NCBI GenBank assembly: GCA_024635475.1
Contig: JAGXIW010000003.1
Span: 496,001-560,000, forward strand
Source: a bacterium
GTDB lineage: Bacteria > Patescibacteriota > Gracilibacteria > BD1-5 > UBA6164
DNA: 64,000 bases
Direction: 5' to 3'
Made by a program: the position numbers and the translations under genes. Positions 1-60,847 of this stretch are shown one piece after another. The notes beneath the pieces were generated by a model. It did not search any database and was not told the DNA's origin. It was given only the letters and a program-made list of their open reading frames with translations. Position 1 is the first letter of the stretch; each line of letters begins with the position of its first letter.

Positions 1-3000
1 ATCAGAGATTTATATGATAGAGTGTCATCTTCTTTTGAAAAAATTATAAAAGAAAATAAATGAAAAACTATTGTTGTTTGTTCTCATGGGGAACCTCTAG
101 TTCTCTTAAAAAAAATTATCAAGGATTATGACTATAAAAAAGATAAACCTAAATTTATCATACAAAACAATATAAATACTAATTTTTTGGAAACTTATGT
201 TTACTCAGAAAGTCTACAAGAAATTGATTTACACAAGCATTTTGTTGATGATATTTTAGTGAGAAGTAATAGTAATAATTTAAATGTTAAAAAAGTATTG
301 GGGATTCATTGAAAGTCATCAGATATAAAAAAAGAAACTTGGATAGAAAAACAAAAAGTTTTTGAAAAAATTTGAATGGATTTAGAATTATTTCAGTTCG
401 ATAGATCAGTAGATCCAACTTATGAATCATGGGAAAAAACTTTTAAAACTATAAGTTTTGATAAATATGATGTTGTTTATACTGATTCTTTATGATGATT
501 AATGACTGTAAAATATTTATCTAAAAATAATATCAGAGTAAAAAGACTTGTTATGACAGTCCCTTGAAAATCATTTAAAACAGAGAAATGAGAATATCTA
601 AATGTTAATAATATTTGGGATAGCTTAACAGAAAATTCATATAAAAATTTAGCAGATGAAATAATTGTTATACATGCAAAAGATGATGAGACTGTTCCTT
701 TTAGGAATTGAAAAGAGTTTGCAGAAAAACTTAATGCTAAATTTATAGAGCTTGAAACTTGATGACATAGATTAGAAAATAATTACCAATTATTAGCAAA
801 TTTAACAAAGTATTGAAATAGTATCTCTAAAAAAGTTCTAGGGATTCATGGATTTAAAAGACATCCTGAAACTTTGATTGATTTTTTAAGTCAAACTAAA
901 CTAAATCTAGAAAAAGAGTGATTTATAGTTGATACTCCTGTATTTGAAGAATGATGAGATATAAATTATAAAAATTGGGAGAAAAAATTGGATGATTTGG
1001 ATTTAAATAATTATGATACAGTATTTACTCATTCTATGTGATGAAGAGTGGTTTTAGAGTACATATTGGAAAAGAAAATAAAACTAGATAGATTAGTACT
1101 TGTTTCTTCTACAAAATATTGAAGTGGTACAAAAGAAGTATCAGACTTTTTTTCAAAAATGAAACATGATGATTTAAGTGAGATAAACAAATATGTAAAA
1201 GAAATAATCCTTTTAACTTCAAAGGATGATAAAACTACTCGTGTAGAATGAGCGAGAAGTTTGGCAAAAGAAATCAATTGAAATTTAATTGAAGTTAATT
1301 GATTTGGACATTTTAATGTAACTGAAAATAAGATAATAGAATGATTAATCAAGTTTTGAACTCCACTAAAAAGAATTCCAGAAGTTCTTGACTGTTGGTT
1401 TGAGTCAGGAAGTATGCCTTATGCTAGTAAACATTATCCTTTTGCTTTTGAAAAGGGTGATGGCTTCAAATTTCCAGCTGATTTTATCGCTGAATGACTT
1501 GATCAGACTAGAGGATGGTTTTATACTCTTATAATACTTTCAACAGCATTATTTGATTCTCCAGCTACTATGAACACCATAGTTAATGGTACAGTTTTAG
1601 CTGAAGATGGTCATAAAATGTCTAAATCTAAACAAAATTATCCAGATCCAAAACTAATTTTTGACAAATATTGAGCTGATGCTATGAGGTTTTATCTTAT
1701 GAATTCTCCTGTTGTAGAAGCCCAAGATCTTAGATTTGCTGAAGTAGGAGTTGAAGAAGTTGTTAAAAAAGTTATATTGCCACTTTGGAATACTTATAGT
1801 TTTTTCACAACTTATGCAAATATAGATAAATTTAAATCAAGTAAATCTCATATATATTATTGTAGACATGGTGAAACAGATCTCAATGTAAAAAAAGTAA
1901 TGAATGGTTGAGATGTAGATTCTTTATTGACAGAAAAATGAAAAAAACAAGCTATATTGGTTTGAAAAAACTTCAAATTATCTGGTGAAAAGATAGATGT
2001 AATTATATCTTCTCCAAAAATAAGAGCTAAAAATACTGCAGAATTGATAGCAAAAGAAATAGGATATAATTCTGAAATAATTATTGATGAAAGATTAAAT
2101 GAGCACAGAGATGGTGTATTTAAATGAATGACTCATCAAGAAATAATAATATATGCTAAAAAAGAATATAATTTAGATTTAGAATTAGGAGCTTCAGTAA
2201 AGAGATTTTTCAAAGATGGAAAATATAATAAAGTAGAAGATGTAATTGATTTTGATAATAGAGTTTTAGAAAGCTATAAAGAAATAGAAGAGAAATATAA
2301 ATGAAAAAATGTGCTTATAGTTGCTCATAGTGGAACTTTTAGACCAATAAATAGATTTATAAATGATTTAGATTTAGATAAAGCTCATTATGAATTACCT
2401 ACTATAAATAATGCGACTATATTTAAACTTCCTGAAAATAGAAAAAATATACTTGATAAATGGATTATTTCAGAATTAAATAAACTTATTTGAGATGTTT
2501 CATCTTGATTAGATTCTTATAAAATAAATGAAGCAACAAGACCAATAATGACTTTTATGGATAATCTGACAAATTGGTATATAAGGAGATCAAGAAAAAG
2601 ATTTTGGAAGCAAGAAAATGATTCTGATAAGATAGAAGCATATGAAACTCTTTATGAAGTTTTGGTAGAACTTAGTAAGATTTTGTCTCCTGTTATGCCT
2701 TTTGTTACAGAACATATTTATAGAAATTTGACAGAAAAAGAATCTGTTCACCTTACTATTTTTCCTAGTGTAAATAATTGATTTATACTTTCAAACCTAA
2801 ATTTAAGTTTTGAAAAAACTGCAAAATTGATTAATTTATGATTATCGTTTAGATCGAGAAATAAATTAAGAGTTAGACAACCTCTTTTAAGTGCTACAAT
2901 CTGAGAAAAATTAGACCAATATTATCTTGATATAATAAAAGAAGAATTAAATGTAAAAGAAATAATAATATTGGAAGATTCTTCAAAGATAGCAAAAAAA

Positions 3001-3498
3001 GTATGTCGCCCAAATGCTAAACTTATCTGACCTAAGTTTGGAAAGGATGTACAAAAAGTAATAATTGAAGCAAAAAATGGGAATTTCGAAGAGTTAGAAA
3101 ATGGAAGAATAAAAGTATGAGAATTTATTCTTGAATCATGAGAATATGAGATGGCTTATGAGAAACTTGATGAGACAATGGATATAGAGGCAGGTTTTGG
3201 TATGGTAATTGCACTTGATGCAAAACTTACCCCTGAACTTATTGAAGAGTGATATGCTCGTGATATAGTTAGACATATCCAAGAATCAAGAAAAGAAGCA
3301 AATTTTCAAGTGGATGATAGAATTGAGATAGAATTAAAAACTGAGAATTTAGAATTAGCAAATAGTATAGAAAAATTTAAAAATAATATTCAAACAGAAA
3401 CTTTATCTACAATAATTGAAAAATTAGCTGATCCTTCTTTTGAAAAGGAGATAGAATTGGAAGAATATAAGTTAAAAATAAGTTTAAAAAAAGTATAA
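1..3498 (+). CDS. ileS: Isoleucyl-tRNA synthetase with inserted phosphatase and hydrolase domains (5' truncated)
   Basis: Charges tRNA-Ile in the cytoplasm. The gene enters from the left edge; 1165 residues are visible. The IleRS core is clear: [10 protein letters not shown] (about 75-84), [17 protein letters not shown] (about 459-475), the KMSKS loop (539-543), then the anticodon-binding and C-terminal parts. The core is interrupted. Residues 1 to about 65 look like the C-terminal half of a histidine phosphatase (VVCSHGEPL). About 98-277 and 281-450 are two RBBP9-like alpha/beta hydrolases (nucleophile motifs TDSLGG and THSMGG, acid in KDDET and KDDKT, His in GGHRL and FGHF). About 616-812 is a second histidine phosphatase ([14 protein letters not shown]). 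After it the core resumes at [13 protein letters not shown]. About 15 glycines checked are TGA-coded. No intein motifs are seen. IleRS identity is firm; the role of the inserts is unknown. Confidence 0.93.
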
Positions 3499-13286: not shown

Positions 13287-14231
13287 ATGAGAAAAATTAC
13301 ATTATTAATGATTACTTTAATTATAAGTATGTCTTTGGTAAATGCTGATGAAACTACTACTTCTACTACTAATACTACTAGTACTGAAACTGGTACAACA
13401 GCTGACACTTCAACTGGTACTGAAACTGATACAACAGCTAGTACTGCAACTGGTACAGTAATTGAAGATTCAAATGAAGATGCTGAAGAAGATGTTGAAG
13501 AAAATACTGAAGATGATTCTTCTGATAATGCAGATAATTCTTTAAATAATAAAAAAGAAGAATTTAAAAAGCTTAAAGAGCAAGAAAAAATGAAAATTGA
13601 AGCGAATAGAGATAAAATGAAAGAAAATAGAGTGAATTTTAAAGCAGAAAGAGCTACAGGATCAGTTAAAAAACCTATGTTAACTGAAGAAACAAAAGCT
13701 CAAATTAAAGTTATAATGGATGCACATAAAGTTAGTGCTGATTCTATTAGAACTTCAGTTGCAAGTGGATCATTAACTAAAGAAGAAGGTCTTAAGCAAC
13801 TTGAAGAATTAAAAATGACTACTAGTGAAAGCTTAAAAGCTTTGGTTTGAAATAATGAAGATGCTATGAAAAACTTATGAGTAAAAAAAGATATGCTTGA
13901 TAAAAATATGGAAATAAGAAAAGAGAATGGTGAAATAAGAAAAGATTTTAGACAACAAAAACATGATTTAAAAGTAAAATATAAAGCAAAATTTGTAAAA
14001 GCTCTTGGAACAAAACTTGATAATTTTAGTGAAGAAAGATTAAATACAATTTTAGCTAAAATTAATGTAGCTATGGAAAAAACTTTGGCAAATAATAAAT
14101 TATCTCAAATAAATAAAGATAAAATTATAGCTCAGTTAGATGCTTTAAAGGCTATCATAAATGAAAAATTATGAGTAAGTGAAGAAGAACAAACTCCTGA
14201 AATTAATGTTGATGAATTAATTTCAGAATAA
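13287..14231 (+). CDS. Secreted coiled-coil protein with Thr-rich and acidic linker
   Basis: A 314-residue protein with a clear signal peptide (about residues 1-20, ending near VNADE). Next come a low-complexity Thr/Ser/Gly stretch (about 21-58), an acidic stretch (about 59-90) and a long charged helical region. The final 60 residues (ALGTKLDNFSEERL, then SQINKDKIIAQLDALK) match the C-terminal parts of the proteins at 18388-19254 and, more weakly, 41666-42634. It is probably an exported surface or periplasm-like protein. No enzymatic motif is seen. A strong terminator follows. Confidence 0.85.
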
Positions 14232-15714: not shown

Positions 15715-15788
15715 TCGGGATTCGCCAAGCGGTAAGGCAATGGACTCTGACTCCATCATCATAGGTTCGAATCCTATATCCCGAGCCA
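15715..15788 (+). tRNA. tRNA-Gln (anticodon CTG)
   Basis: A 74-base cloverleaf. Acceptor stem is TCGGGAT / ATCCCGA, the D arm is around GCCAAGCGGTAAGGC, the anticodon stem ATGGA / TCCAT encloses loop CTCTGAC (U33 present, anticodon CUG), and the T arm is ATAGG TTCGAAT CCTAT. The CCA end is encoded. Confidence 0.95.
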
Positions 15789-15822: not shown

Positions 15823-16464
15823 TTATTTAATTTCTTTATCAGTAAATACCACTAATCTATTTGGATAACTTTTTTTTACTTTATTCCATTCTCACTGGCA
15901 AGTTATTAGATTAAGATGTGATTTTTCATCTTTTGAATTAAATACATCTGAGGTACTATCACTTTGATTATATATTTTAATTTCACGAACTATAAAAGTA
16001 GTAATTATTCATTTTTCATCTTCAACATATAATTTGTCGCCCTTATTTAATTTATATAAATTATTAAATGCTGGGGATATACCATTTTTTATTCCATAGT
16101 GTCAATCAATAACTGCAACTCATTTTTCACCAGGACGAGGTCATAAATTGAACCAAGCTACATTAATAAAGTCTTTTGGAATTTCCATTATTCCTTTAGG
16201 TGTAAGACCTACATGTTCAATAATAACATTGATATTCATTTTTGGGATTTTTAAATAGACAGGAAGTCATGATTTTACTTGTTCTATAGGAACAATTTTT
16301 TGGGGAACATCAATTGATTTAATATAACTATGATTTTGATTTTTAATAGGTTGTATAATAGGATTTATATTAAAAATATCTAAAAATACAAAACAAACTA
16401 CTGAAAATAATAAAACACCCATAATACTAATAATTAACAATAAATTTTTAATTGATTTTTTCAC
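15823..16464 (-). CDS. Sortase (class E/F-like)
   Basis: A 213-residue membrane-anchored cysteine transpeptidase that joins sorting-signal proteins to the cell surface. An N-terminal hydrophobic anchor (about 8-30) is followed by the sortase barrel (LPVYLKIPKMNINVII, GIMEIPKDFINVAWF). The catalytic His is in VIDGHYGIKNG, the Cys in LNLITCQGEW, and the Arg in YPNRLVVFT. The gene directly downstream of a predicted sorting substrate (16575-18020) on the same strand, separated by a terminator, suggests a dedicated pair. Confidence 0.88.
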
Positions 16465-16495
16465 TTATATTTTTTAAAAAAAATATTAATAATAT

Positions 16496-16522
16496 AAAAA
16501 TTCCACCTTGTGTGGAATTTTT
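16496..16522 (-). terminator. Rho-independent terminator after the ice-binding-like gene
   Basis: Perfect 11-bp stem AAAAATTCCAC / GTGGAATTTTT with a 5-base loop, between the two minus-strand genes. Confidence 0.85.
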
Positions 16523-16574
16523 ATTAACTATAAACAAGGTATATATCATTTTTAAAATAAAAAATATATATATT

Positions 16575-18020
16575 TTATTTTTTATAATTTAAAACTAATG
16601 ATTTTGAAATAAATACAAATATCCCGATAAATCAAATAATTATAATTATATTCCATGGATTATTATTATTATCAGAATGAATTCATGTGTTTGGAAACCC
16701 TGGTGTAACTACTTTTTTAGCATTAATATTATCATTAACAGTAGTTTTAATTTCAGGAACTATTTGTATAATTGGTGGAGTAATTATTTGTGAAGTAACT
16801 TTAGGTTTAACAGGTGGATTTATTATAAGAGTTGTTCAAGTAGATGTAGTAGTAAGAGTTGTTCAAGTAGATGTAGTAGTAAGAATTGTTCAAGTAGACT
16901 CAACAATAGGAGCTGTTCAACATATTTTATCATAATAACTATATGAATAATCTCACTCTGGACAAGAATCAATCGTACTTCATCCACCACCACCACCACC
17001 TCAACTAATAACAGGTGTTATATAAGTATTAGTTATTGTACAAGTTTTATTATCTCCAGCTAATAAACTAACATTACCACTTGTATTACAATCTCAAGCA
17101 AAACTTTGAGTATAAGAAGTATTTGCATTTTCACTTACTATATAATTTCATGCTGATAGAGAATAAGTCGTTCCAGGAGTTCAAGTTCCTGTTGCAGGAC
17201 TTCCTATTACATCAGAACCAAGGGGATATTTTACATGTAAAGTAAAATCAGAAGCTATAGCAGTTCAATTAACTACATTTTTGATTATGTGTAAAGTAGC
17301 TGGACTAGAACTAGAACATATTGGAGCAGTTATAGTATCTGTATCAGTTGTAATTGTTCCACCATAAGCCAAAGCCTTTCATAAAAAAGTAGTATTAGCT
17401 CACATAGTAATACCAGCAGCATCAATAATAATTCAGTTAAATGTTGTATTAGCTCCAAGTGTAGTAGCTGCAGTTGGTGTCCAAAAAACATCACAATTTG
17501 AAGATCCAGATAATGTTATTACTGAACCGTCTACTGTATTAAGAGCTCAATTTATTCTAAATATATAAGTTCCAGCTCAATCTAGAGTAATTCATGTTCA
17601 TCAAATAGTAGCAGCTCATGTTATACAATATACTCAGGGAGTATAAACTCAAATTGCTCAACTATGAGTAGTGTCAGTTGCTAAATCAATTGCTCATGGG
17701 GCAAAAGTAAATGTACATACTTGATTATTAAGATCAGTCAAAGTAGTGCCTTGATCTATACCTGCTTGATTATATAAACTATCAGCCATATGTACTGAAC
17801 CAACTAGTGTAGGTGGAGTAGCTGGTGCAGTAGTATATCATATATCTCCATTTACAGTAGTAGATGTAGTGTTTGTATATGTACTAGAAAGAATTGCAAA
17901 TGTTCAAGCACTATTTAGAGCTGGACTTGTTGCAGCAAATACAGAAACTAAACTAGCTATTCCAAATATAGAGATAGTAGTTAATATTGCTATTAGGGCA
18001 GTCTTACTATAATTTTTCAT
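16575..18020 (-). CDS. Ice-binding-like (DUF3494) surface protein with a sortase signal
   Basis: A 481-residue exported protein. A signal peptide covers about 1-29. Residues about 33-235 match the DUF3494 ice-binding/adhesin family: LNSAGTFAILSSTYTNT, VNGDIGYT, GAATIGGTGITLDGAGTYIF, and NCDVFWTPTAATTLGANTTF followed by GIIID. A second beta domain follows (about 240-335), then a Gly run, Thr-rich 9-residue repeats and a Pro-rich stalk. The C-terminus is a sorting signal: PGFPNTG, a hydrophobic span and a Lys-Lys tail. This fits display on the cell surface by the adjacent sortase. Ice binding is a family property; adhesion is equally plausible. Confidence 0.85.
16828..16904 (-). repeat. Three 27-bp tandem repeats in the surface protein stalk
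   Basis: Two identical 27-base units (16828-16854, 16855-16881) and a diverged third encode the nonapeptide pattern S-T-G-T-T-L-T-T-T. They lie within the coding region, so they are a stalk repeat and not a CRISPR. Confidence 0.85.
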
Positions 18021-18387: not shown

Positions 18388-19254
18388 TTACTCAGCAGTA
18401 ATAGTTTCTTCTGTATCAAGACTATCTTCAAGTAACTCTTTTAGAGCAGTTAATTGAGACATAATCTTTTCTTTGTTTATTTGAGATAATTTTGTATTAG
18501 CATCAAATTTTACCATCATTGCATCGATTTTTCATAAAATCTTTTCTAATTTCTCAGGACTTTTTGCTCAAACTTTAACAAGTTTAGCTCAAAGTTGAGA
18601 ATGAAATTTTTCTTTATAAGCTAAAACTTGTTTTTTTCTATCACCTCTAAATTCTTCTCTAGCTGTTTTATTTTCTTCTCTTAATTCTTTATTTTCTTCT
18701 GCCATTTCTTTTCTAGCTTCAACCCAAGCTAATGCTTCTTCATTTGATCATACAAGTGTTTTTAATTCTTCATGATGAGCAATTACCATTTCTTCCAATT
18801 TAGTTTTTAATTCTTGTCTCAAAGTATCTTTTAATTCAACTCAAGTTGCTGATTCGATTTTACTCTCATATTCTTTTTTTAGGGCTTCAGTAGTAGTTTT
18901 AAATTCTTCTTGTAAAGCTCTGATCTTAGCTTTAGTTTGATCATTTAAATTGTTAAAAGCTCAAGAAGCAGTTCAATTTTCTTTTCTAAAACTTTGAAGG
19001 TTATTTTTTATTTCTTCCCTATTTACTTTAATTTGAAAGTTCATTTCTTCTCTATGTTCTTTTCTGTCTTCATTTTTTACTTCATTTTTAACTCTCATAA
19101 TATTGTTAGTTGAAGTTAAATTATGTAATTGTTTCATTTGATTAGGTGTCAACTTTATTTCTTTTGTGTTTTTATCTGTACTATCATTAGCAAATGTTCA
19201 TGACATTAAGATAATTAATATTGATACTAAAGATGTTTTAAATATTGTTTTCAT
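18388..19254 (-). CDS. Secreted coiled-coil protein, paralog of the 13287 gene
   Basis: A 288-residue protein with a signal peptide (about 1-22, MKTIFKTSLVSILIILMSG), then almost entirely charged helix. The C-terminal module (GAKLVKVGAKSPEKL, KLSQINKEKIMSQLTALKEL) aligns with the end of the 13287-14231 protein, including the shared LSQINK core. The two are probably paralogs of an exported structural protein. It carries no catalytic motif. It is followed by a strong terminator and preceded by the lipoprotein/kinase/regulator operon. Confidence 0.85.
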
Positions 19255-21833: not shown

Positions 21834-22610
21834 TTATTTTTTATCATAAATGTTTTCAAAATATTTTTTTACTCAACTTGTTCAATCTTGGTTTATAATC
21901 CTGATTAATTCACTTCAAATAATTGCAAAATTTGCAATTTTACAAACCTCATTTATATCTTCTGATGTTTTTACTCAAAAACCTACTCATATTTCTATAT
22001 CTTTTAATTTTTTAAGTTTATGTATGTAATCTTCAAAATCTTTTCAAAAATTTATTTTATTTCAAGTTGTCATATTTTGACTAACAGCATAAACAAATCA
22101 ACTTGATAGTGAAAATATCTTTTTTAATCTAGATTTTTTACAAGTAGGAGAAATAACTTGAATAAGGTTTATATTATATTTTTTACATAATTTTATAAGT
22201 TCTTTTCACTCTTTTTCATCAAAAGGTATATCAGGAATTATAAGTCCAAATATTCAGATTTTCTTGGCTTTTTCAACAAATTTTTCAACTCAGTAGTTAT
22301 AAACTATATTGTAGTAAGTCATTATAAGGATTTTACAGTCGTCCTTACTTTGTCCCCCTTCGATAAGGGGGGTAGGGGGGATTTGTACTATAGACCTCTC
22401 CAAAAAATCAAAACAAGTACTCGGAGTAATTCAGTTTTCCAAAGCTACTTCATTTGCATTTGAGATTATTGGACCGTCAGCAATAGGATCAGAAAAAGGA
22501 ATTTGTATTTCTATATATTTTGAATACTTAGATAGTATTTCCAAAAGTTTTTGGCTTTCTTTTATACTAGGATAGCCACAAACTAGATGGGTCATTATTG
22601 GCTTTTGCAT
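21834..22610 (-). CDS. trpA: Tryptophan synthase alpha chain
   Basis: Cleaves indole-3-glycerol phosphate to indole, which is channelled to TrpB. The 258-residue barrel shows THLVCGYPS, EIQIPFSDPIADGPII (with the catalytic acid in the PFSDPxADGP motif), LIIPDIPFDE and the phosphate-binding VGFGVKTSEDI. Residues about 76-87 (around QIPPTPLIEGGQ) come from a C-rich/G-rich palindromic element inserted in frame. The family's loop before LIMTYYN is normally short there. It is last of the trp genes; an opposite-strand gene separates it from trpB. Confidence 0.95.
22351..22385. repeat. Palindromic element inside trpA (in frame)
   Basis: CCCCCTTCGATAAGGGG followed by GGTAGGGGGG: a GC-rich imperfect palindrome, far richer in GC than the flanks. 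Read in the trpA frame it adds about 12 residues without a stop. Confidence 0.75.
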
Positions 22611-22695
22611 AAATGGTAATATAAGAAAATAAAAATTGACATTTATAAAATAGTAGGTATATATAAAATATAAATTTTATTTAATAATTATATAT

Positions 22696-23154
22696 ATGGT
22701 AATAAAAAAATATGATGTTTCAAAACTCAGTTGAGTTCCTGAAAAAACTGTGGATGTCATGGGGGGTGATTTAACAAATGAAGCAGTTATTGAGATATTA
22801 AGTCTTTCAGTAGAAGAAATAGACTGAATGCCAGATGAAAAACATAATAATCTTATAGAATTAATAAAACAAAAACCAAGATTATGGAAACAATTAGTAT
22901 CAAAAAAATCACCTGATTTTGGATCTCCAGAGGAAAATAATTTTATAGAATTAATAAAACAAAACCCAGAATCATGGAAACAATTATTTATAGCTGTAGT
23001 TCCTGCTACTCAAGAAGAAGTTCTTGAAGCTACTTATAATTGAAGATATTGACCTTGACTTCCAGCAGCAGAACTTCCAAAAGATGATGCCCCAGTGGAA
23101 TATGGAGATTTAATACCAGACTTTTGGGCAAGAGTAGCGAAATTAAAAATATAA
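22696..23154 (+). CDS. Hypothetical protein with internal duplication, antisense within the trp cluster
   Basis: A 152-residue acidic soluble protein of unknown function. It contains two copies of a segment, NNLIELIKQKPRLWKQL and NNFIELIKQNPESWKQL, 37 residues apart. The C-terminal third is rich in Pro and Gly, with TGA-coded glycines. It runs opposite to trpB and trpA and lies exactly between them, so it probably has its own promoter. I see no catalytic motif or signal peptide. Confidence 0.75.
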
Positions 23155-23189
23155 GCACATAATTTCATATTTATAAAAAAATTATAAAA

Positions 23190-24527
23190 CTATTTTTTCT
23201 TTTCTATATACTCCCTCAAAAATCCCATAAATCAACTATCAAATTTAGGAGCCGTGATAAATAAATCCTTATCTCATCTACCAGACAGATTGCATACGAC
23301 AATCTGTTCTTTTTTTAGTTTTGGAGCAAGTTTTATAACTTCAGCAACGGCGTGAGCTGATTCAAGTGCTGGGAGAATTCACTCAGTTTGCATAAGTACT
23401 TTTATAGCATTTAGTGATTCATCATCTGTTGCATAAGTCATTTGCACTCTTTTTATATTTTCTAGATATGCAATTTGTGGACTAACTCCTGAGTAATCAA
23501 GTCAAGCAGAAATCGAGTATGTATCAAGTACTTGTCAATTATCATCTTGTATAAAGTATGATTTGTATCACTCTACGAATCATATTTTTTTGTTTGCAAA
23601 TCTGGAAGCATGTTGACCTGATTCTATTCATTTTCATCAAGCTTCAACTCAGATAAGTTTTACATTTTTATCATCTAAAAAATCATAGAAAAATCCGAGA
23701 GCATTGCTTCATCAACCTACACAAGCTACCATATAATCAGGTAGAAACCCCTTTGTCATTCTGAGTTTTTGCGAAGAATCCCTTAAACCTAGTTCTTTGC
23801 CATTTTCATGTAAAAGGGATCCTTCATTGCATTCAGGATGACAGGAATTAGAATATTCTTTCAGCTGTTTCCTAACCTCTTCTCATATAATTTTTTGAAA
23901 AAATACATTCATAGAAGGGTAAGGATTTGGTCAGCAAGCTGTTCAAAGTAAGTAATAAGTATCTTCAGAATTATTTAGTAAATCTTTCAATGCTGTGTTT
24001 ACTGCATCTCTGAGTGTTTGATTTCACTCATAAACAGGTATTACTTTCGCTCATGCAAGTTCCATATATATCACATTTGGTCTTTGTCTATCATAATCTT
24101 TTTTTCACATATAGATTATACACTCTAGTCCGAGTTTTGCACATATTGCAGCAGTTGCAAGTCCGTGTTGTCCAGCTCAAGTCTCAGCAATTATTCTTGT
24201 TTTTCACAAGTATTTTGCAACAAGAGCTTGTCATACAGAGTGATTTATCTTATGAGCTCAAGTGTGATTTACTCATTCATTTTTTAAGTAAATTTGAGCT
24301 CAACCAAGTTTTTTTGTTAGATTTTCAGCAAATATAAGAGGGGATGGTCTACCAATATAGTTTTTATGTAAGTCTTTTAGATCTCGTATAAAGTTTTTGT
24401 CTTTTTTCAATTTGAAGAATGCATCTTTTACTTCATCCATAATTGGGATGAGAAGTTCGGGGATATATCTTCACCCGAATTCTCAGAAGTGTCAGTTTTT
24501 ATTTATTATTATGTTTTTTAGGGTCAT
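23190..24527 (-). CDS. trpB: Tryptophan synthase beta chain with a repeat-derived insertion
   Basis: PLP enzyme joining indole and serine to tryptophan. The 445-residue protein shows [23 protein letters not shown], the PLP-lysine motif [25 protein letters not shown], the phosphate-binding CVGGGSNALG, and HAVAEVI near the end. Residues about 226-258 ([17 protein letters not shown], then [12 protein letters not shown]) are the translation of a palindromic repeat inserted in frame, which explains a length some 45 residues above typical. Core active-site motifs are intact, so activity is likely if the extra loop is tolerated. Confidence 0.95.
23754..23852. repeat. Palindromic repeat, TGTCATCCTGAG family, inside trpB
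   Basis: Starts TGTCATTCTGAG with AAGAATCCCTTAAA on one arm and AAGGGATCCTTC on the other, ending CAGGATGACA. Same family as 5635-5725 and 52437-52530. At 99 bases it keeps the trpB frame open. Confidence 0.88.
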
Positions 24528-24571
24528 AGAAAGATATATTATATATTAAAATAGTTTTTTTATTAAAGGAA

Positions 24572-24604
24572 CAATTTAGTTTTACTTTTGGAAGCAAAAG
24601 TAAA
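24572..24604. repeat. Short hairpin element, copy A (trpB-trpEG gap)
   Basis: CAATTTAGT followed by a perfect 10-bp hairpin TTTACTTTTG / CAAAAGTAAA with a 4-base loop. A near-identical element is found inverted at 29710-29741. It occupies the otherwise empty 150-base trpEG-trpB gap. Confidence 0.6.
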
Positions 24605-24677
24605 GAGTAATTATATTGTTTTTATCTTTTATTTTTGAAAGAAAAAGTATAAAATATTTTAAAGAGCATTTTTATAA

Positions 24678-26468
24678 TTATCAAATCAATTTTTCAATAT
24701 TTTCTTTTAGGATAATAAGTCAATTTTGTGTTAGAATACTTTCTGGGTGGAATTGGAAAGAGAAAAAGTTTTTCTGTCTTAGAGCATAAATTTCATTTGT
24801 TTTTGGATTGTTTGAGAACTTGAAATCACTAGAATCCTTTTCTTTAAATCAAGCAAAAGTATTATAAAAAGCCACTTTTTGCATTTCTCAAAATAAATTT
24901 ATTTCTATTTGTTCTCATTGGGTTGGGATTTCTTTTTTTTGTACTTTGATTTTTAGATATCTACATATAAGTTGATGTCAAAGACATATTCAAAAAAACT
25001 TTTTGTTGTTTTTGTATAGGTAATCAATTATATCTAGATTTTTTTGCATTTTTTCAGTATTTTCTAGTGGATTTCATGGACCTGGTCATATTAAAGAAAT
25101 ATCAAAATTATATAATTCACTAATTTTAACTTCATTGAATCTTTTCAGTGTAATTTTATATCAAAGTATTTTCAATATATGAGCTATCATATTTGTGAAA
25201 TCATCTTCATTGTTTATAATTAGAATTTGTTCTTTTTTTATTTCTAGATTTTCAAAATCTTGTTTAAAAAACCATGTTTTGCTTAAATTTTGGTTTCTTA
25301 TTTGTATAAGTTCTTGAACTTCATCATCCAAATAATATTTTTCCAAAAAATTTGTTTTTGTATTTGTAATTCAAAGTAAAGCATTTAAAACTCACTTTGA
25401 CTTTATTTTAATTTCTTCATATTCACTTTCTGGAACAGAATCTTTTGTTAAACTTGCTCAAACACAAAATTCTAATCATCAATCAATATTGATATCCAAA
25501 GTCCTTATCATAATACTACTATCTAGTGAGTCTTTTTTTAAATGAGAAACGGCTCATGCATAATATTTTCTATCAAAATTCTCATATTTTTTTACAATTT
25601 TAAAAGCATTTTCAATTGGACTTCCTACCACTGTACAAGCCCATATTGATTCTTTGAAAATCTCTAATTTTTTCATTTTACTTTCTCAACTGAGTAGATA
25701 TTCAGTGTGAATTAGATTAGACATTTCTTTTAAGATTGGTCATACAATTATTCATCAGCCTGTACAGATTTTACTCATCATTTTTAGTTCTTCATCAACA
25801 CACATAAAAAGCTCGTTTATTTCTTTTTGGTCTTTTAAAAATAATAAAAAATCTTTTTTGAAATCTGTATAATTATCGTATTTTGTTTTTCTAAAAGTTC
25901 CAGAGATGGGGTTCATCCTTACTATATTATTTTCTACACTTACATTTCTTTCTGGGCTTGCTCAAATGAAAAACTTATTTCAATCAAAAAATAAAAATTG
26001 TAGATAACTACCACACTCAGATAAAATGATTCTTTTGTAGATTGTAAGAGCTTTCTCTACTTCAAAATTAATTATTTTTCAAGTAATTTTTTGGGCAATA
26101 TTGAAGTTTGATCATTCTCAATTTCAGATTTCTTTGTTTACTATATTATTTACGATTTCAGTATGTTCTTTTTTTGTGAAATTTTCTATCAATTCTCAAT
26201 CTAATTTAATTTCTTTCTCTTTAAAAGTTTTTATAAACTCATCTATTGAGTATATTTTTTCTTCATTAACTATAATTGATATTATTTTTTCATTATTTTC
26301 TTTTACTTCGAATCATCTTTCCTTGGCTTGTGTGAATGGAGTTATAAAAATTTGTTCTACACTTTCATCAATTTCTGATAGTAGATTATATTTTTGCACT
26401 TTTCCAGAGAAATATCTTATGAAGTCTTCTCACTTTTTTTTGTATAGTGCGAATGGTTTATTATACAT
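24678..26468 (-). CDS. Anthranilate synthase, TrpE-TrpG fusion (PhzE-like)
   Basis: Converts chorismate and glutamine to anthranilate, the first step of tryptophan synthesis. The 596-residue protein fuses a chorismate-binding domain (about 1-390: SPERNVSVE, MNPISGTFRK, IHTEYLLSGES, YYAGAVSHL, SSIMIRTLDI) to a glutamine amidotransferase (about 410-596: IGPGPGNPLEN, catalytic Cys in FGICLGHQL, QFHPES). The motifs NPISGT, HTEYL and TPFTQAKERGFEV are closer to PhzE-type enzymes than to classic TrpE. PhzE makes aminodeoxyisochorismate, so product identity rests on the trp operon context. Confidence 0.88.
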
Positions 26469-26486
26469 AAATTTTTAAGTTAAAAA

Positions 26487-27098
26487 TTAAAAGTTTTCCA
26501 TTATTTTTACTATTCTTTTAGTTTTTCTGTTGCAGATGTTTTTGCCGTTGTCTACTCAGGAAGCTGTGTCTACTCAGGAAGCTTTTGGAACTTTTGTAAG
26601 GACTTCTGCGAGATTGAATTCATTTATTCATCAGGCAATTAAAAATGGTTTAGAGAGTTTTAAATTATTTAGAATTTCATAATCATATCATTTTCAACTT
26701 CAAGGAATACTTCAATCTATTATATATAAATCAATATTTTCATCTTCTTTTAGTGATTTTATATCTGGATATGATATGGAATGTAATATATGAAATCAGT
26801 GTTTTTTTAGGTAAGCAAAATCACAATTTCAATATATTTGCAGGGAATCCAATTCAGTATGTTTTGCAGTTTTGATTATCTCATCAAGATATGTTTTATC
26901 TAGGTTTTGCCAGACTTTGTTTTCATATTTTCAAAAAAGTCATACTCTTTTTACATTTTCTGGAGTAATAATTTCTTTTGCTAATTCTTTAGTGATTTTT
27001 CTTTTTGAAATTTCAATAAAATTAAATCATAGAAAATCGATTCAATCATAGTTTTTTAATCTATTTCTAATTCAGCAGAGTTTTAGTAATTTTTTCAT
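26487..27098 (-). CDS. trpF: Phosphoribosylanthranilate isomerase
   Basis: Third step of the tryptophan branch (Amadori rearrangement). The 203-residue barrel starts LKLCGIRN with the catalytic Cys; its Gly is TGA. It continues with DFLGFNFIEISKR, VGLFGK, the catalytic Asp region LYIIDGSIPGSGKGYDYEI and the phosphate-binding FLIAGGINEFN and GVDTASGVDNGK. An 18-base direct duplication encodes the A-S-G-V-D repeat in the last motif, but the product still fits the family. It lies 18 bases upstream of trpEG. Confidence 0.93.
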
Positions 27099-27152
27099 AA
27101 AATGAAGATTAAAAATAGATAATAAGAATTATTCTTATATTAATTTTGTTTG

Positions 27153-28007
27153 CTATTTTGAGAGAAAATCTAATACTACTTTTAAATTTATATCGACTAG
27201 GTCACTATAGGCTCATACTTTTTCTCAGGCGATTATTTGTTTTGCAAGTTCAATTTTTTTGTTTATATCTTTTTCTAAAATTTCTTCTAGGCTCACTTTT
27301 TTATATCAGAAATCCTCTGGAGTTATTTCATAATTTTTTATTTTTCAATTTTTTAGTTCATAAATTTTTGTTTTTCAAGTTAATGTAATTTCATCAAGTC
27401 AATCTTCTCACCTTATAACAAGTACATTTTTTCTTCATAAAATTTTGCAAGTTTCTATCATAAGTTCCATTTTATCTTCGAAGCTACAACCAATTATTTG
27501 ATAATCAGAATTAGCAGGAGATAGTAATGGTCAAAGTATGTTAAATATTGTTGGTTTGGCATAATTTTTTCTAGCCTCAGCAAATTCTTTCATAAAAGGA
27601 AAAAAGTTTTTTGCATATAGGAAAGCTATATTATTATTTTTATATTCATCAAGTGTTTCTTCTTTTGAATTTGGAATTTTGTATCAAAGTTTTTCAATTA
27701 GATCAAAACTTCCAAATCTACCACTACTTGCATTATTTCAATGTTTTGCAATTTTAACTCATTTTTTTGCAAGTTTTAGACAAGCTAAAGTTGAAGTATT
27801 GATTCTATCAAGTCAGCTTCAACCAGTTCAACAGATGTCTGTAGAATCAAATAAATCTATATTTATTGCTTGTTTTGATTTAAGATAAGTTACTATTTCA
27901 GCAAGTTCTTCAGGAGTTACTTTTTTTTCTGCTATATCTTGAAGCATTTTAAGTTTATCGGATTCAGAGATGTTATTTTCTAGGACTTTTTTTATAAATT
28001 TTTTCAT
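27153..28007 (-). CDS. trpD: Anthranilate phosphoribosyltransferase
   Basis: Second step: joins anthranilate to PRPP. The 284-residue protein shows the PRPP/Mg loop DICGTGGSGLDRINTST, KHGNNASSGRFGSFD, the anthranilate pocket region FPFMKEFAEARK, TIFNILGPLLSPAN, and the acidic pair in VIRGEDGLDEITLTG. It is shorter than the usual 330-345 residues, mostly through trimmed C-terminal parts. It lies 19 bases after trpC. Confidence 0.94.
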
Positions 28008-28026
28008 AGATTATTATATTAAAAAA

Positions 28027-28740
28027 TTAAATGTTTTTCATAAAATATGTTCAGATAAGAACTCAATTAAATTTGTTTTTATATTTTTTTATATCTTGTA
28101 AATTAGTAATTCAAGAAAATGCAAATAGTAGTTTGTTGGCTAGTTTATCTTTATATTTTTCTTGTAAATTAATATGAGAATTGTTATCAATTTGCATATT
28201 TCATAGATTTCTGGAATTAATTGCGATTCAAAAATCAAGGGAATCACTTAATTTTATTATTTCTTTTAGATCTTTTTCGTTATCGATTTCTACAATTGGA
28301 AATATGTTTTTTTCTTGGGTATAATTTATAAGATTTATCAAATCTTTATTTTTTAGAATTCTTTTTATTAAAAGTAATGCATCATATCAAAAATATGAAG
28401 CTCAATCAATTTGAGTCTTATCAATTACAAATTCTTTGAAAAAAATAGGTTTTTTATACCTTTCTTTAAATATTTTTCATCTATTTATATCTCAGTCAAA
28501 GTATTTTTTATCTACTAGATTTGATACTGCTTTGATTTTAGGATTATTTCAATAAAAATCAAGTATAGTATCGATATTTTTTTCTTGTGCAAGATTAGAA
28601 ATACTTGGAGATTTAATCTTTATTTCTCAAATAATATTTGCATCTTTTTTCACAAAGACTTTTTTGAATAAATCTTTGTTTGACTTAATTGATACTAGTT
28701 CTTTTTTCTTGTTTTTTACTATCTCATCTAAGATTGTCAT
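28027..28740 (-). CDS. trpC: Indole-3-glycerol phosphate synthase
   Basis: Fourth step: ring closure to indole-3-glycerol phosphate. The 237-residue barrel starts ILDEIVKNKKKEL. It then shows GEIKIKSPSISN (the family's catalytic Lys in the K-x-x-S-P-S motif), VSNLVDKKYFDG, KPIFFKEFVIDKTQI, DALLLIKRIL, FPIVEIDNEKDL (with the conserved Glu), INSRNL and AFSGITN. It is first in the trp operon, directly behind the leader attenuator. Confidence 0.94.
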
Positions 28741-28760
28741 ATAAATAAAAATTAATAAAT

Positions 28761-28856
28761 AAAAAAAGCTGTTAATTTGAATAACAGCTTTTAATTTTAA
28801 ATTTTTTGTAATTTTTAAACACAAAAAGTATAACTAAAACTGTTATTTTTAGTTAT
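28761..28856 (-). promoter_or_regulatory. trp transcription attenuator (terminator/antiterminator)
   Basis: On the minus strand: hairpin 1:2 is ATAACTAAAA / TTTTAGTTAT (28856-28830, perfect 10 bp). AATAACAG in its loop is complementary to CTGTTATT at the terminator's 5' arm (alternative 2:3 antiterminator). The terminator AAAGCTGTTA / TAACAGCTTT (28791-28765) is followed by a T-run, 24 bases before the trpC start. Tandem Trp codons of the leader peptide sit just before arm 1. This is the layout of ribosome-mediated attenuation. Confidence 0.85.
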
Positions 28857-56334: not shown

Positions 56335-58470
56335 ATGAAAATAAAGACAATAAAAATACTTTTTATATCACTAGTTTTAATCATAAATTTTTTTGTTATT
56401 TTAGGTGTAGAAATAACAAAAGCTTATACTCCACCAATAGGGATTCCAGATCCTGATTTTGGTATTAATGAATCACATACGATGTATGTTGGTCAAAAAT
56501 TTGATTTTGATGGTGATTCAATTTTGGAAGAATGAGAAGAATATAAAGATGCTGGCAATGGACCATATACTCATTATATTAATAAAAATCATCCTTTAGC
56601 TACTGATAAGAATAATATATTTTGAACGGCTGATCTCCCTCGTCTAAGTATTCCTGTAACTCTTTCGGCTGGTAGTGTTGTGGAAATTCATGGTTTTCTT
56701 TATACTACAATAATGGCTGGTAAGTCACAATATATAATAGATGCAAGCGGTACCGTTGATAAGCCAATATTTTTTAGAGGTATTGGTTGAGTTGATAATC
56801 CAACTTTTGGGTCAGAAATAAATACTCGTGGTCAGTATATAATTTTTGAGAATTTAAATATGAAATATGTAGGTTTTTCTTTTCCTTATCGACAAAATGG
56901 TATCTATTATGATGTTCATCATACATCTGTGAGAAATTGTAATCTTTTTGGAGAGGGGATAAATAAAGGATCAGCTTCTGTTATATCTGTAAGAAGTAAT
57001 TTTGAACATCCAGTTAATAATATTGTTATATATAACAATGAAATTAGTAAATTTTGAAAATATGATGCTTTAGTAGAAAATGATTACCATGGTGCTGGTG
57101 TGGGTGCCAATGTGACTAATTTTCGGTTGTTGAATAATAATATTCATCATTTGGGAGGTGATTCTATTCAAGTGAATTATTATGCAGATTCACCTAATGT
57201 AATACCTAACCATATTTATATTGGTAAAAATGATATGCATAGTAATTATGAAAATGCTGTAGATTTGAAAGGTTGTCGAGATGTGATTATCTCACAAAAT
57301 AAAATGCATGATTTTGCTTATGCTCCGACAGTTTCTCATTATGATACAAAGGATCATACGGAGCGAGCATGGTTTCTCTATAATGAGATATATAATGTTA
57401 CAACAAGTAATGCTAATAGTGTAACAGGTGGATCTGACGAAATATATTTTATTGGTAATATCATTCATAATATCCAGAGTGCATCATGAACATCACTTGC
57501 ATTTAGTTCATGGAGTAGTAAAAGATTATATATTTTAAATAATACTGTTTTTAATAGTGATGGTGGAATAAATTTTTTTGGTACGGATATCTTAGCACGA
57601 GCAACAATAATAAATAATATTTTTACAAATCTAAATACCGAAAAGTATGTTTCTTTGACTAATACTGCTTATGCAGAAAAGGCATTAATTTACAATAATA
57701 TTTTTTATTACTCTTCTTGAGTACCAAATATCTACGGAAATCAACATGAAAGTTTAACTATTAACCCATTGTTAGTAGATGAATATAATAATAATGCACA
57801 TTTACAATTTAAAAGTCCAGCTATCAATGCAGGTGAAGGTGTATTGATAAATCAGATTTATGCTACCTTTGAAGATCTTTATCCAGGACAGAGTATTCGT
57901 TATGATTTTGATTGAAACCCTAGACCAATAAATGGTCCGCGGACAATATGAGCATACGAATATATAGATGATTATATTCCACCAATTATAACAAATCCTC
58001 GACAATCAACAGCGGCACAATCATCACCATCATCAATATCATTAGCACCAACACAATCGTCAACATCAGCAAAATCATCACCATCATCAATATCATTAAC
58101 ACCAGCACGAACATCAACTCCAATACCTTCAATAAAACAACTACAAACAAATAATAATGTAACAGAATCAGTAAATAATATCAAAACAACAAATAATTCT
58201 GGTACTATAAATAACGAAATGTTAAAAACAAAAAATTATGTAAAACAATTAATTATATCAAAATGAAGATTAAATAAAACAAATGAGTGAAAAATGTATA
58301 TAAATGCAATAGATTTATTTGTAAATAAACAAAATAAAGAAGAATTATTAATATTACTTAAAAAAATTTGATTATTAAGAGATAAGCTAGATTTAAAAAC
58401 AACACTTAAATATGCTAATGTGCTTGATTATTTAGAAGCAAGTATTTGAATTAAATTAAAACAAATATAA
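56335..58470 (+). CDS. Secreted right-handed beta-helix protein, paralog 1
   Basis: A 711-residue exported protein. The signal peptide covers about 1-30 (FFVILGVEITKA end). Then PPIGIPDPD and a body of parallel beta-helix type repeats (NNIVIYNNEIS, LLNNNIHHLGGDSIQVN, IYIGKNDMHSN, VIISQNKMHDF, RLYILNNTVFNS, ATIINNIFTN). The body ends in DFDGNPRPINGPRTIGAYEY, followed by a Ser/Pro/Thr linker and a helical C-terminal domain (about 620-711). It resembles polysaccharide-binding or -degrading beta-helix proteins, but no catalytic triad can be claimed. By my count, glycine codons are 39 GGN and 12 TGA, the reverse of resident genes. Confidence 0.88.
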
Positions 58471-58519
58471 ATATAAATATAATAAATATTATAAATTTTA
58501 TTTTTTTAATTAAAAAAAT

Positions 58520-60847
58520 ATGAAAACAAAGATAATAAGAATACTTTTTATATCACTAATTTTAATTATAAATTTTTTTGTTATTTTAGGTGTAGAAATA
58601 ACAAAAGCTTATACTCCACCAATAGGAATCCCAGATCCTTGAATGTGGTGAAATACTCATCCGATTGATTCAGTTGCACCTAGCACAGAAATTAAATGTC
58701 CAACATGGCCTAGTAGTCAAACGGATAACTGTTATTACATAGATAATACTAATCCTAATAGTACTGATAAAGATAATCCTTATGGTTATCCAAATAAACC
58801 GAGAGCTACAATTCCAGCTGGTACTTATGTAGCTGGATCATACATAGAAGTACATTGAGGACCTTATATAACATCGGCAACAAGGACTATGAATGGAACG
58901 GCTGAAAATCCAATATGGTTTCGTGGAACTTCAAGTCAAGCTAAACCAATTTTTAAAGCCAAGCAATCTTTTACTAATAGTTCCTATTTATTTATTGAAA
59001 ATTTAGAGTTTAGTGATATTACAGGCGGGAGTATTGTGTTTTTTGGTATGAATACACATCATGTCATACTTAGAAATTCTTACTTTCATGATATGACTTA
59101 TCCTGGAGGTTCTACATCAGTTATTGGGGCTACACCTACTCAGAGTGGTAGTATGCATGATATGATATTTTATAATAACAATTTTCATATTATTGGTGAT
59201 TGGAAAGCCCTTGAGGATGATGATTACCATTGTATTGCTCCTGGTTTATGGGGCCGTACCCCACCGACAACTATTTATAATTTTTGGGTTTTGAATAATA
59301 CAGCTGATCAAGTATCAGGAAACCTGGTTCAATTTAATGGTGATCAACGAGATGCAGGTAGATGAGATTCTGAAGTTCCAATAAGATTGATTACAAATAC
59401 TAATATGCAAAATTCACATCATCATTATGTGGGAAAAAATATAATGCATCATAGTAGGCAAAGTATTTCATCACAGAAATTTTCTACAGATGTGATTGTG
59501 TCTCAGAATTATGGCCATGATAATTATAGTCATTCTTCTGATGGGGCTTCTGGAGAAGTGTATCAGGAAGGAGCTAATTATGTATGGTTTCTTTTTAATA
59601 GATTTCATAATCAAGATTGGGGGATTAGACAATCAAATACAAATTTTGATACCCCAAATGGAGATGCTCTTACTGGAATTCCATCAGAAGAAATGGCTAA
59701 TTTGCATATGTATGCGATTTGAAATTCAATAGAATATACTCATAATACGAAGTGAAATAATTATAAGGGTACTTCTCCTAGAAATCATGCTTTTAAAATT
59801 ATGCAGGCTTTTTGTTCAGAAAAAGGTCATTATACAAGGTATGTTATAGATAACACAATTTATAATACTGGTGGAGGTTTTAATTTTACTAATTACAAAT
59901 CTCGTACTGAATTAAGCGGGAATGTAATTGCCGGAGTACAAGGTTTTGATCTTCATGGTGACCCTGAATATCATGGTAGTATCTTTAGATATTCATTATC
60001 TGATCCAAGTGAAGAAATTATGGACTATTCATTTTTTCAACCTAGAGCTGATGATGGAACAGTTCGTTTTAGATGGTTCACTGCAGATGATGTTGCTATT
60101 TCTCCTACATCATTACAGGATTTACAATCAGCCACTGATCAATGCAAAAATTGTTGGTCTGGTAATCCACTTTTTGTTGATGCTAATAATTATAATCTTC
60201 ATCCACAAGAAAATTCACCTCTCATTGGAAAAGGTATCCGTCATGCAGTTTATGATGAGTTTAAATCTAGATATGGTATAAGTATAGACTACGATTTTGA
60301 TTGAAATCCTAGACCAAAAAATGCTACTCGGACATTAGGAGCCTTTGAGTATACAAGTAATTATATATTACCTATTTTTACACCTGCTCAACCAGAACCA
60401 GTAGTAAGAAATACAATAGTACCAATTATAACAATACCATCGACACCAGCACCATCAATATCATTAACACCAACACGATCATCAACATCATCAACACAAT
60501 CACATTCATTAACACTTCAACAAACAAATAAAAATGTAACAGAATCAGTAAATAATATCAAAACAACAAGTAATACTGGTACTATAAATAACGAAATGTT
60601 AAATACAAAAAATTATGTAAAACAATTAATTATATCAAAATGAAGATTAAATAAAACAAATGAATGAAAAATGTATATAAATGCAATAGATTTATTTGTA
60701 AATAGACAAAATAAAGAAGAATTATTAATATTACTTAAAAAAATTTGATTATTAAGAAATAATCTAGATTTAAAAACATCAATTAAATATGCTAATGTGC
60801 TTGATTATTTAGAAGGAAGTATTTGAATTAAATTTAAAAAAATATAA
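58520..60847 (+). CDS. Secreted right-handed beta-helix protein, paralog 2
   Basis: A 775-residue exported protein. The first 40 residues (signal peptide to PPIGIPDP) and the last 100 (NNEMLNTKNYVKQLIISKG to the end) are nearly identical to paralog 1, while the beta-helix body differs. Body motifs include NPIWFRGTSSQ, YLFIENLEFSDITGGSI, VILRNSYFHDMTY, DMIFYNNNFHIIG, FWVLNNTADQVSGN and DFDGNPRPKNATRTLGAFEY. The body uses mostly GGN for glycine; the shared C-terminal domain uses TGA. It starts 49 bases after paralog 1, with the same upstream sequence. Confidence 0.88.

Follow-up and report, generated by a model that had tools for sequence, protein, structure and literature searches.

In Gram-positive bacteria, dedicated sortase-substrate pairs are known; in pairs of the SrtB-IsdC type, a sortase is encoded beside its own exported substrate, which carries a signal different from the housekeeping one. 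PEP-CTERM is an exosortase system of Gram-negative bacteria. How members of the Candidate Phyla Radiation (CPR), tiny and for the most part uncultured bacteria, hold on to hosts and surfaces is an open question, and for most of their surface proteins no route of attachment has been predicted. Fibrillar adhesin-like proteins combine an adhesive domain, a stalk and a sortase motif, and PF11999 (DUF3494) is listed among the adhesive domains in a survey whose accessible text mentions neither CPR nor a paired sortase (PMC8286594). An architecture joining DUF3494 to a PEP-CTERM sorting motif, PF11999-PF07589, appears in the accessible part of another study (PMC9957290).

We analyzed a window of 64,000 nucleotides (contig JAGXIW010000003.1, positions 496,001 to 560,000) from a gracilibacterial genome of 1.35 Mb in eight contigs that reads TGA as glycine. 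The genes of the putative substrate P0001 and the sortase P0002 (Table 1) are open at these coordinates solely under code 25 (TGA = Gly); P0001 contains 28 TGA codons read as glycine, and P0002 starts with GTG and contains 6. The standard code (table 11) was rejected, as it leaves no ORF of 90 or more amino acids at the locus. A preliminary description, made from the DNA letters, had reported an exported DUF3494-type protein ending in PGFPNTG, a hydrophobic span and KK, with a sortase as the next gene on the strand and its His, Cys and Arg in place. All of this was confirmed, and the coordinates and gene description were right in the details checked. Its proposal of a dedicated surface-display pair now has strong genomic support from co-occurrence, adjacency, the signal, fusions and a separate second sortase. 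Its further suggestion, that the ice-binding fold may help the cell adhere to a host, is neither backed nor contradicted by the present data. As judged from these sequence data, the pair very probably forms a two-gene surface-display module with a private sortase.

Table 1. Features of the substrate-sortase locus, in window coordinates
Feature	Positions	Strand	Basis or detail
P0001, exported DUF3494 protein, putative substrate	16575..18020	-	Code 25 ORF, 481 aa; PF11999 3.4e-23
Signal peptide, ~residues 1-29 of P0001 (...VSVFA/ATSP)	17934..18020	-	Read from sequence by eye
DUF3494 beta-solenoid domain, residues 46-231 of P0001	17328..17885	-	Pfam; model pLDDT 94.7; Z 31.1 to 7bwy, rmsd 1.3 over 194
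CnaB/pilin-like Ig domain, ~residues 238-336 of P0001	17013..17309	-	Structure comparison of model
FPNTG pentapeptide, residues 442-446 of P0001	16683..16697	-	DNA pattern search of genome, hit at contig positions 512684-512697; read by eye
Remainder of P0001 sorting signal: hydrophobic span and KK end	16578..16682	-	Sequence
Intergenic hairpin of 13 bp with a T-rich tail	16494..16524	-	Terminator-like site scan
P0002, sortase	15823..16464	-	213 aa; PF04203 3e-21; N-terminal hydrophobic stretch, LITC motif with Cys189, His122, Arg203
tRNA-Gln adjoining the module, possible insertion site	15715..15788	+	Context

The two genes are separated by 110 bases, and the terminator-like hairpin that parts them is a counterpoint to reading them as a pair. 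Three terminator-like sites were found between 15600 and 18450, against a mean of 0.6 in shuffled sequence. The intergenic hairpin is a possible attenuator, which would yield more substrate than enzyme. Across 85 pairs, the gap from the substrate stop to the start of the sortase open frame was at most 30 bases in 49, a measure that runs to the start of the open frame, with sortase start codons perhaps lying further in.

P0001 consists of the DUF3494 domain, an Ig domain, a Gly-rich stretch and a repeat-rich linker, followed by the sorting signal. PF11999 matches it with 82.8 bits against a curated cut-off of 28.7. The preliminary description had left to structure prediction whether the DUF3494 domain folds at all; in the AlphaFold2 model of residues 29-345 it does, with a mean pLDDT of 94.7. 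A helix (residues 53-70) lies among the strands, as expected of a beta-solenoid with a long helix alongside, and the domain superposes on solved antifreeze proteins with Z values of 27-31. The family profile, run against the PDB at E ≤ 0.01, retrieved 25 sequences, all of them ice-binding, antifreeze or DUF3494 entries. The second domain (model residues 210-308) has no Pfam match. Its best comparison was with the GBS52 pilin 3phs (98 residues aligned, rmsd 3.6), at a Z of 8.9 that is tied with other adhesins and little above the tool's "middling" level.

Given this fold, the pair might display a true ice-binding protein, the anchored domain attaching to ice or limiting its regrowth as happens in cold-adapted bacteria. 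Ice-binding sites are typically hydrophobic surfaces with spaced hydroxyls on the B-face, and the FfIBP repeat is T-A/G-X-T/N, according to the accessible text of one study (PMC7277481); that of the adhesin survey singles out PF11999 as binding ice, not cells (PMC8286594). On three B-face strands, Thr fills outward position 4 in 27, 25 and 25 of 30 aligned sequences; on a fourth strand this position is Thr in 17 and Asn in 4. Small residues predominate at the two outward positions that precede it. The first position, in contrast, is mostly Ala, Gly or Ser as read from the alignment, and the leading Thr of the FfIBP repeat is Ala or Gly in P0001; thus the repeat is half kept. One relative (L106) comes from palsa by its record title, whereas a number of others are titled as lake or aquifer genomes, including the RIF, GW and CG series, which we take to be from Colorado aquifers above freezing. 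On balance, we consider true ice binding unlikely.

The sortase assignment of P0002 is firm in Pfam, with 75.9 bits for PF04203 against a curated cut-off of 26.6. An alignment of 28 linked sortases, P0002 included, shows no variation at His122, Cys189 and Arg203, and the same columns are invariant in a 47-sequence alignment. The best NCBIfam model is that of class F (NF033748), yet its 98.5 bits lie below the cut-off of 166, so that P0002 falls short of formal class F membership; all 28 linked sortases match this model. The sortase beta-barrel was seen in the model (pLDDT 84.4) of a fused homologue, L141, which is 51% identical to P0002 and gave a VIA Z of 17.3 to 3re9 over 128 residues.

P0001 ends in PGFPNTG-IHSDNNNNP-WNIIIIIGFIGIFVFI-SKSLVLNYKK, that is, in an [LF]PxTG motif, a hydrophobic span and a basic C-terminal tail of the LPXTG type. 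Its tail was unmatched by the Gram_pos_anchor model PF00746 in Pfam, and the locus was absent from a genome search with this model at E ≤ 10. That search hit two other places, both LPQTGPE proteins, with 12.5 and 9 bits against a cut-off of 20, and at the same E value it also gave matches in 13 of 14 control genomes. PF00746 was therefore rejected as a finder of other substrates, its two matches being below cut-off even though they fell on real tails, and was replaced by a DNA pattern that allows just L or F in first place and may miss other signals.

The signal recurs in the substrates that adjoin related sortases, with a consensus of [LF]P[NDK][TA]G[FIVL]xP. A regular expression finds the motif in 81 of the 86 substrates that adjoin a sortase; the match in L145 is spurious. 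The first residue is L in 61, F in 17, M in 2 and I in 1 (L145), the third is N in 50, and the fourth is T in 70, A in 10 (one of them L145) and S in 1. The residue after the motif's G is mostly F, I, V or L, and P stands three residues past the G in 52. By a simple hydropathy cut, a hydrophobic tail is present in 69 of the 81, all 69 with K or R in the last eight residues, and is absent in 12, i.e., in eleven genuine substrates besides L145. Thus, classical membrane retention cannot hold for all of them. One of the eleven, G113, is the only other PF11999 carrier in the family of the source genome.

At four loci (L079, L141, L149 and L179), PF11999 and the sortase share one ORF, for L141 also by Pfam. 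The motif between the fused parts is LPNTA in L079, LPKTG in L141 and WPKTG in L149, and none was seen between PF11999 and the sortase of L179; a hydrophobic span was not evident between motif and enzyme. Because each of the four fusions has its own contig and the linkers differ, assembly error is unlikely. Docking of the LPKTG motif of L141 into the active site could not be read from the model, in which this segment has a pLDDT of ~46-56. Other joined domains were SLH in the DUF3494 relatives L086 and L100, PG_binding_1 in L150 and, just under cut-off, in L106, and, among linked sortases, SLH in L098 (5746-6852) and PG_binding_1, just under cut-off, in L139 (41-880). As far as such matches can tell, the wall is the common theme of the domains joined to DUF3494 or to linked sortases. 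More speculatively, the fused forms might be self-installing adhesins, in which the enzyme would cut its own chain, in cis or on a neighbor, leave the adhesin on the wall and be spent; on this view, the two-gene form seen here would represent the ancestral, catalytic state of a cassette that passes between lineages and serves, throughout CPR, to attach cells to hosts or neighbors. If they work, these one-chain fusions could serve as single-use sortases.

The fusions, like the eleven adjacent substrates, lack a membrane tail, which would also suit an enzyme that is a protease or polymerase rather than a wall anchor, releasing the protein or stringing copies into a fiber. The Ig domain is pilin-like, some loci bear signal-carrying PF11999 genes in tandem, and the top Foldseek matches of a fused homologue are class C pilin sortases. 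However, classes C, E and A score alike by VIA, with Z values of 16-17, and the nearest sequence model is that of class F; we regard this reading as improbable.

The case for a private sortase draws on genomic pairing. A search profile built from eight PF11999-linked sortases gave matches of at least 170 bits in 29 of 353 genomes of the class (source genome included), 27 of which carry PF11999 (Fisher test, 1.8e-30, with relatedness of the genomes ignored). At this threshold there were 31 matches, 28 of them beside PF11999; two of the other three stand at contig ends, and the third is a short ORF that starts like PF11999 and ends like a sortase. Conversely, in 29 of 45 PF11999 rows (44 examined plus P0001) a P0002-like sortase either follows on the strand of the PF11999 gene or is fused to it, and these rows represent 28 genes, one being split over two rows. 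No sortase was found downstream in the remaining 16 rows. Two of these have SLH ends (L086 and L100), one has a signal in a stretch that stops at a contig end (L073), one has an MPVTG signal with no sortase in the stretch (L092), and the other twelve showed no sorting signal in their last 62 residues.

The same pattern held across the phylum. In 379 evenly drawn genomes, source genome included, the sortase lineage occurs at 180 bits or more in 28, and all 28 carry PF11999 (table 28/10/0/341; Fisher test, 2.5e-34, again blind to relatedness); 10 of the 38 PF11999 genomes have no sortase at this score. PF11999 lies upstream, on the same strand and within 4 kb, at 27 of 30 sortase loci, and at 22 of 25 outside the class of the source genome. 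At the three unadjacent loci, PF11999 is on another contig (G515), the sortase is the second one of its genome (G520), or the locus is near a contig start (G659:C7). Among lower-scoring sortase matches, 2 of 26 adjoin PF11999, both cut by contig ends. Because the profile came from PF11999-linked sortases and the bit thresholds were chosen after the gap was seen, the claim is limited to this sortase lineage. For it, class and phylum data both show the exclusive genomic pairing expected of a dedicated pair.

Named genomes contained 174 relatives; among the best 80, an ORF resembling PF11999 (own HMM, E ≤ 1e-4) is present at the locus in 71. Nearly all of the 80 are titled as CPR lineages or plain "bacterium," L179 being titled Actinomycetes on a 4.3-kb contig, and at least nine duplicate genomes of the class. 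At least six of the nine loci without PF11999 are cut by a contig end: L112, L167 and L178 begin at one and L139 nearly so, an upstream signal-bearing ORF is cut by the contig start in L123 and L160, and the first of three such ORFs is cut in L122. Contig ends do not explain L133 and L157, which are true exceptions. The combined distinct set comprised 136 sortases, of which 86 (window included) are adjacent to PF11999, 4 are fused and 46 are neither; with the linked model, these 46 split into 23 below and 23 above 120 bits. The pairing is a conserved module that recurs across CPR, and it is probably a widespread surface-display device there.

The source genome encodes two sortases and one PF11999 protein. 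Its [LF]PxTG-like DNA matches number 24, and 4 of them combine, by eye, a C-terminal motif, a hydrophobic span and a basic tail: FPNTG in P0001, and LPQTGPE, LPQTGPE and LPKTGPG in three other exported proteins. Sorting signals are thus more than chance in this genome. By eye, the second sortase lies near pilus-type ATPase, PBP1A-like and LytR-like genes. A FastTree tree, for which the program warns of long branches, divides into two sides, both subtended by branches with a support of 100, one holding the linked lineage and the other the second sortase of the source genome. For 23 high-scoring rows in the tree no neighboring PF11999 was flagged, some of these rows being truncated at contig ends, and one low-scoring, long-branch row, the second sortase of L115, falls on the linked side. 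In a sister group of sortases, L202-L205 (G195, G165, G161), which score 134-175 bits with the linked model, PF11999 was not flagged nearby; one of them adjoins a short protein ending in RLPNTGGGGMAQ. Four congeners have one sortase match each and zero PF11999. That one general sortase serves all signals, adjacency being inherited gene order only, is quite improbable: the difference between FPNTG and LPQTG is small, and in other bacteria housekeeping sortases accept signal changes of this kind, but the P0002 type is patchy (37 of 353 class genomes at E ≤ 1e-20, against some sortase in 333) and tracks PF11999 (28 of 28), fusion ORFs link the PF11999 substrate to a P0002-type enzyme, and P0002 stands apart from the second sortase in the tree.

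In the mechanism that we propose for the private pair, P0001 would be exported by Sec, as its signal peptide suggests, and its C-terminal hydrophobic span and basic tail would keep it in the membrane. The class F-like P0002 would cleave FPNT/G through its Cys and transfer P0001 to a cell-wall amine, probably that of a peptidoglycan precursor, so that the antifreeze-type beta-solenoid would be displayed on the Ig stalk and linker. P0001 would thereby become covalently attached to the wall. P0002 would be private to P0001, and the LPxTGP proteins would presumably be served by the second sortase, the two acting orthogonally. As a counterpoint, MurJ scored 22.9 bits in the source genome against a cut-off of 27.4, so the genome does not clearly show a wall-precursor pathway. 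Of the functions considered for the predicted pair, wall display has the best support, and adhesion appears to be its likeliest purpose. As to use, we lean toward an adhesin for cells, polymers or surfaces; some other or structural use is a weaker possibility, and contact with ice is doubtful.

Neither P0001 nor P0002 had a match when phage carriage was considered. In G082, trigger factor and tRNA-Gln lie together, followed by other genes, and another contig carries the gene of the exported coiled-coil protein along with the lipoprotein-like and two-component genes, so the module of the window sits between two blocks kept in the genus. Insertion at tRNA-Gln was considered, but no empty site was seen. 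Two exported coiled-coil proteins, 37% identical, flank the module at 13287-14231 (+) and 18388-19254 (-). In two congeners the latter gene lies with genes for a response regulator and a histidine kinase, and the lipoprotein-like gene is matched in one; these coiled-coil and two-component genes are possibly an envelope-stress set.

Other parts of the window also deserve mention. The window start truncates a class I tRNA synthetase gene (22-3498, +), which by eye is of the isoleucyl type; it has a serine-hydrolase match (PF06821) in two stretches before the end of the synthetase core and a histidine-phosphatase match (PF00300, 6e-35) between the PF06821 match and the anticodon-binding domain. 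Genes of the trpA, trpB, fused trpE-G, trpF, trpD and trpC types (Pfam) occupy 21834-28824 (-), a tryptophan-synthesis set that small genomes of the CPR type do not usually have. At 56335-60847 (+), two exported paralogues (711 and 775 amino acids) look like parallel beta-helices with a common C-terminal region and had no Pfam match over cut-off.

With regard to known systems, a sortase with a private substrate is a known kind of arrangement; a search of the open-licence PMC literature turned up no account of the DUF3494 partner, of its spread through the phylum or of the fusions, and the accessible texts yielded no description of a DUF3494-sortase pair. The locus differs from pairs of the SrtB-IsdC type in that its substrate is a DUF3494 protein, its host belongs to the CPR and fusions occur at four loci. 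EfcIBP (6eio), AnpIBP (7bwx) and FfIBP (4nu2) share the fold of the P0001 DUF3494 domain, in which the B-face repeat is only half kept, and to our knowledge these solved proteins are not sortase-linked. DUF3494 proteins with PEP-CTERM likewise end in a sorting tag but depend on an exosortase rather than a sortase. P0001 resembles fibrillar adhesin-like proteins in layout, whereas the survey of those proteins, in its accessible text, treats PF11999 as an ice binder (PMC8286594). The pair described here gives the DUF3494 domains of CPR genomes a likely context, wall display, and is a concrete, widespread combination of enzyme and substrate whose readable signal makes it open to in vitro tests.

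Class F sortases offer the closest comparison. We examined 17 plasmid records with class F or similar sortases, in 13 of which the annotated upstream gene was translated; of the others, L235 has an integrase gene upstream, L227 has no annotated gene, and two Rhodococcus records are unannotated. By eye, 12 of the 13 upstream proteins end in a hydrophobic span and a basic tail, L232 being the exception, and the partners include CHRD, DUF4397, VWA, DUF4331 and others. One-to-one pairing thus looks common for class F by its gene neighborhoods, with varied partners elsewhere, whereas in CPR the partner of the P0002 lineage is almost always PF11999. The Rhodococcus plasmids NZ_CP046573 (one of the 13) and NZ_CP110470 encode a PF11999 protein with a C-terminal HPETG beside a sortase, Pfam having been run on NZ_CP046573 only; in a third, NZ_CP113952, the PF11999 part and the HPETG tail are in different frames. 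One Rhodococcus record annotates both genes without comment on the pair. The Rhodococcus version differs from the CPR one in its signal, HPETGAGG, and in its sortase, which is 31-32% identical to P0002, and its substrate was too distant to be detected by tblastn with P0001. These plasmids nevertheless provide cultured stand-ins for the CPR pair.
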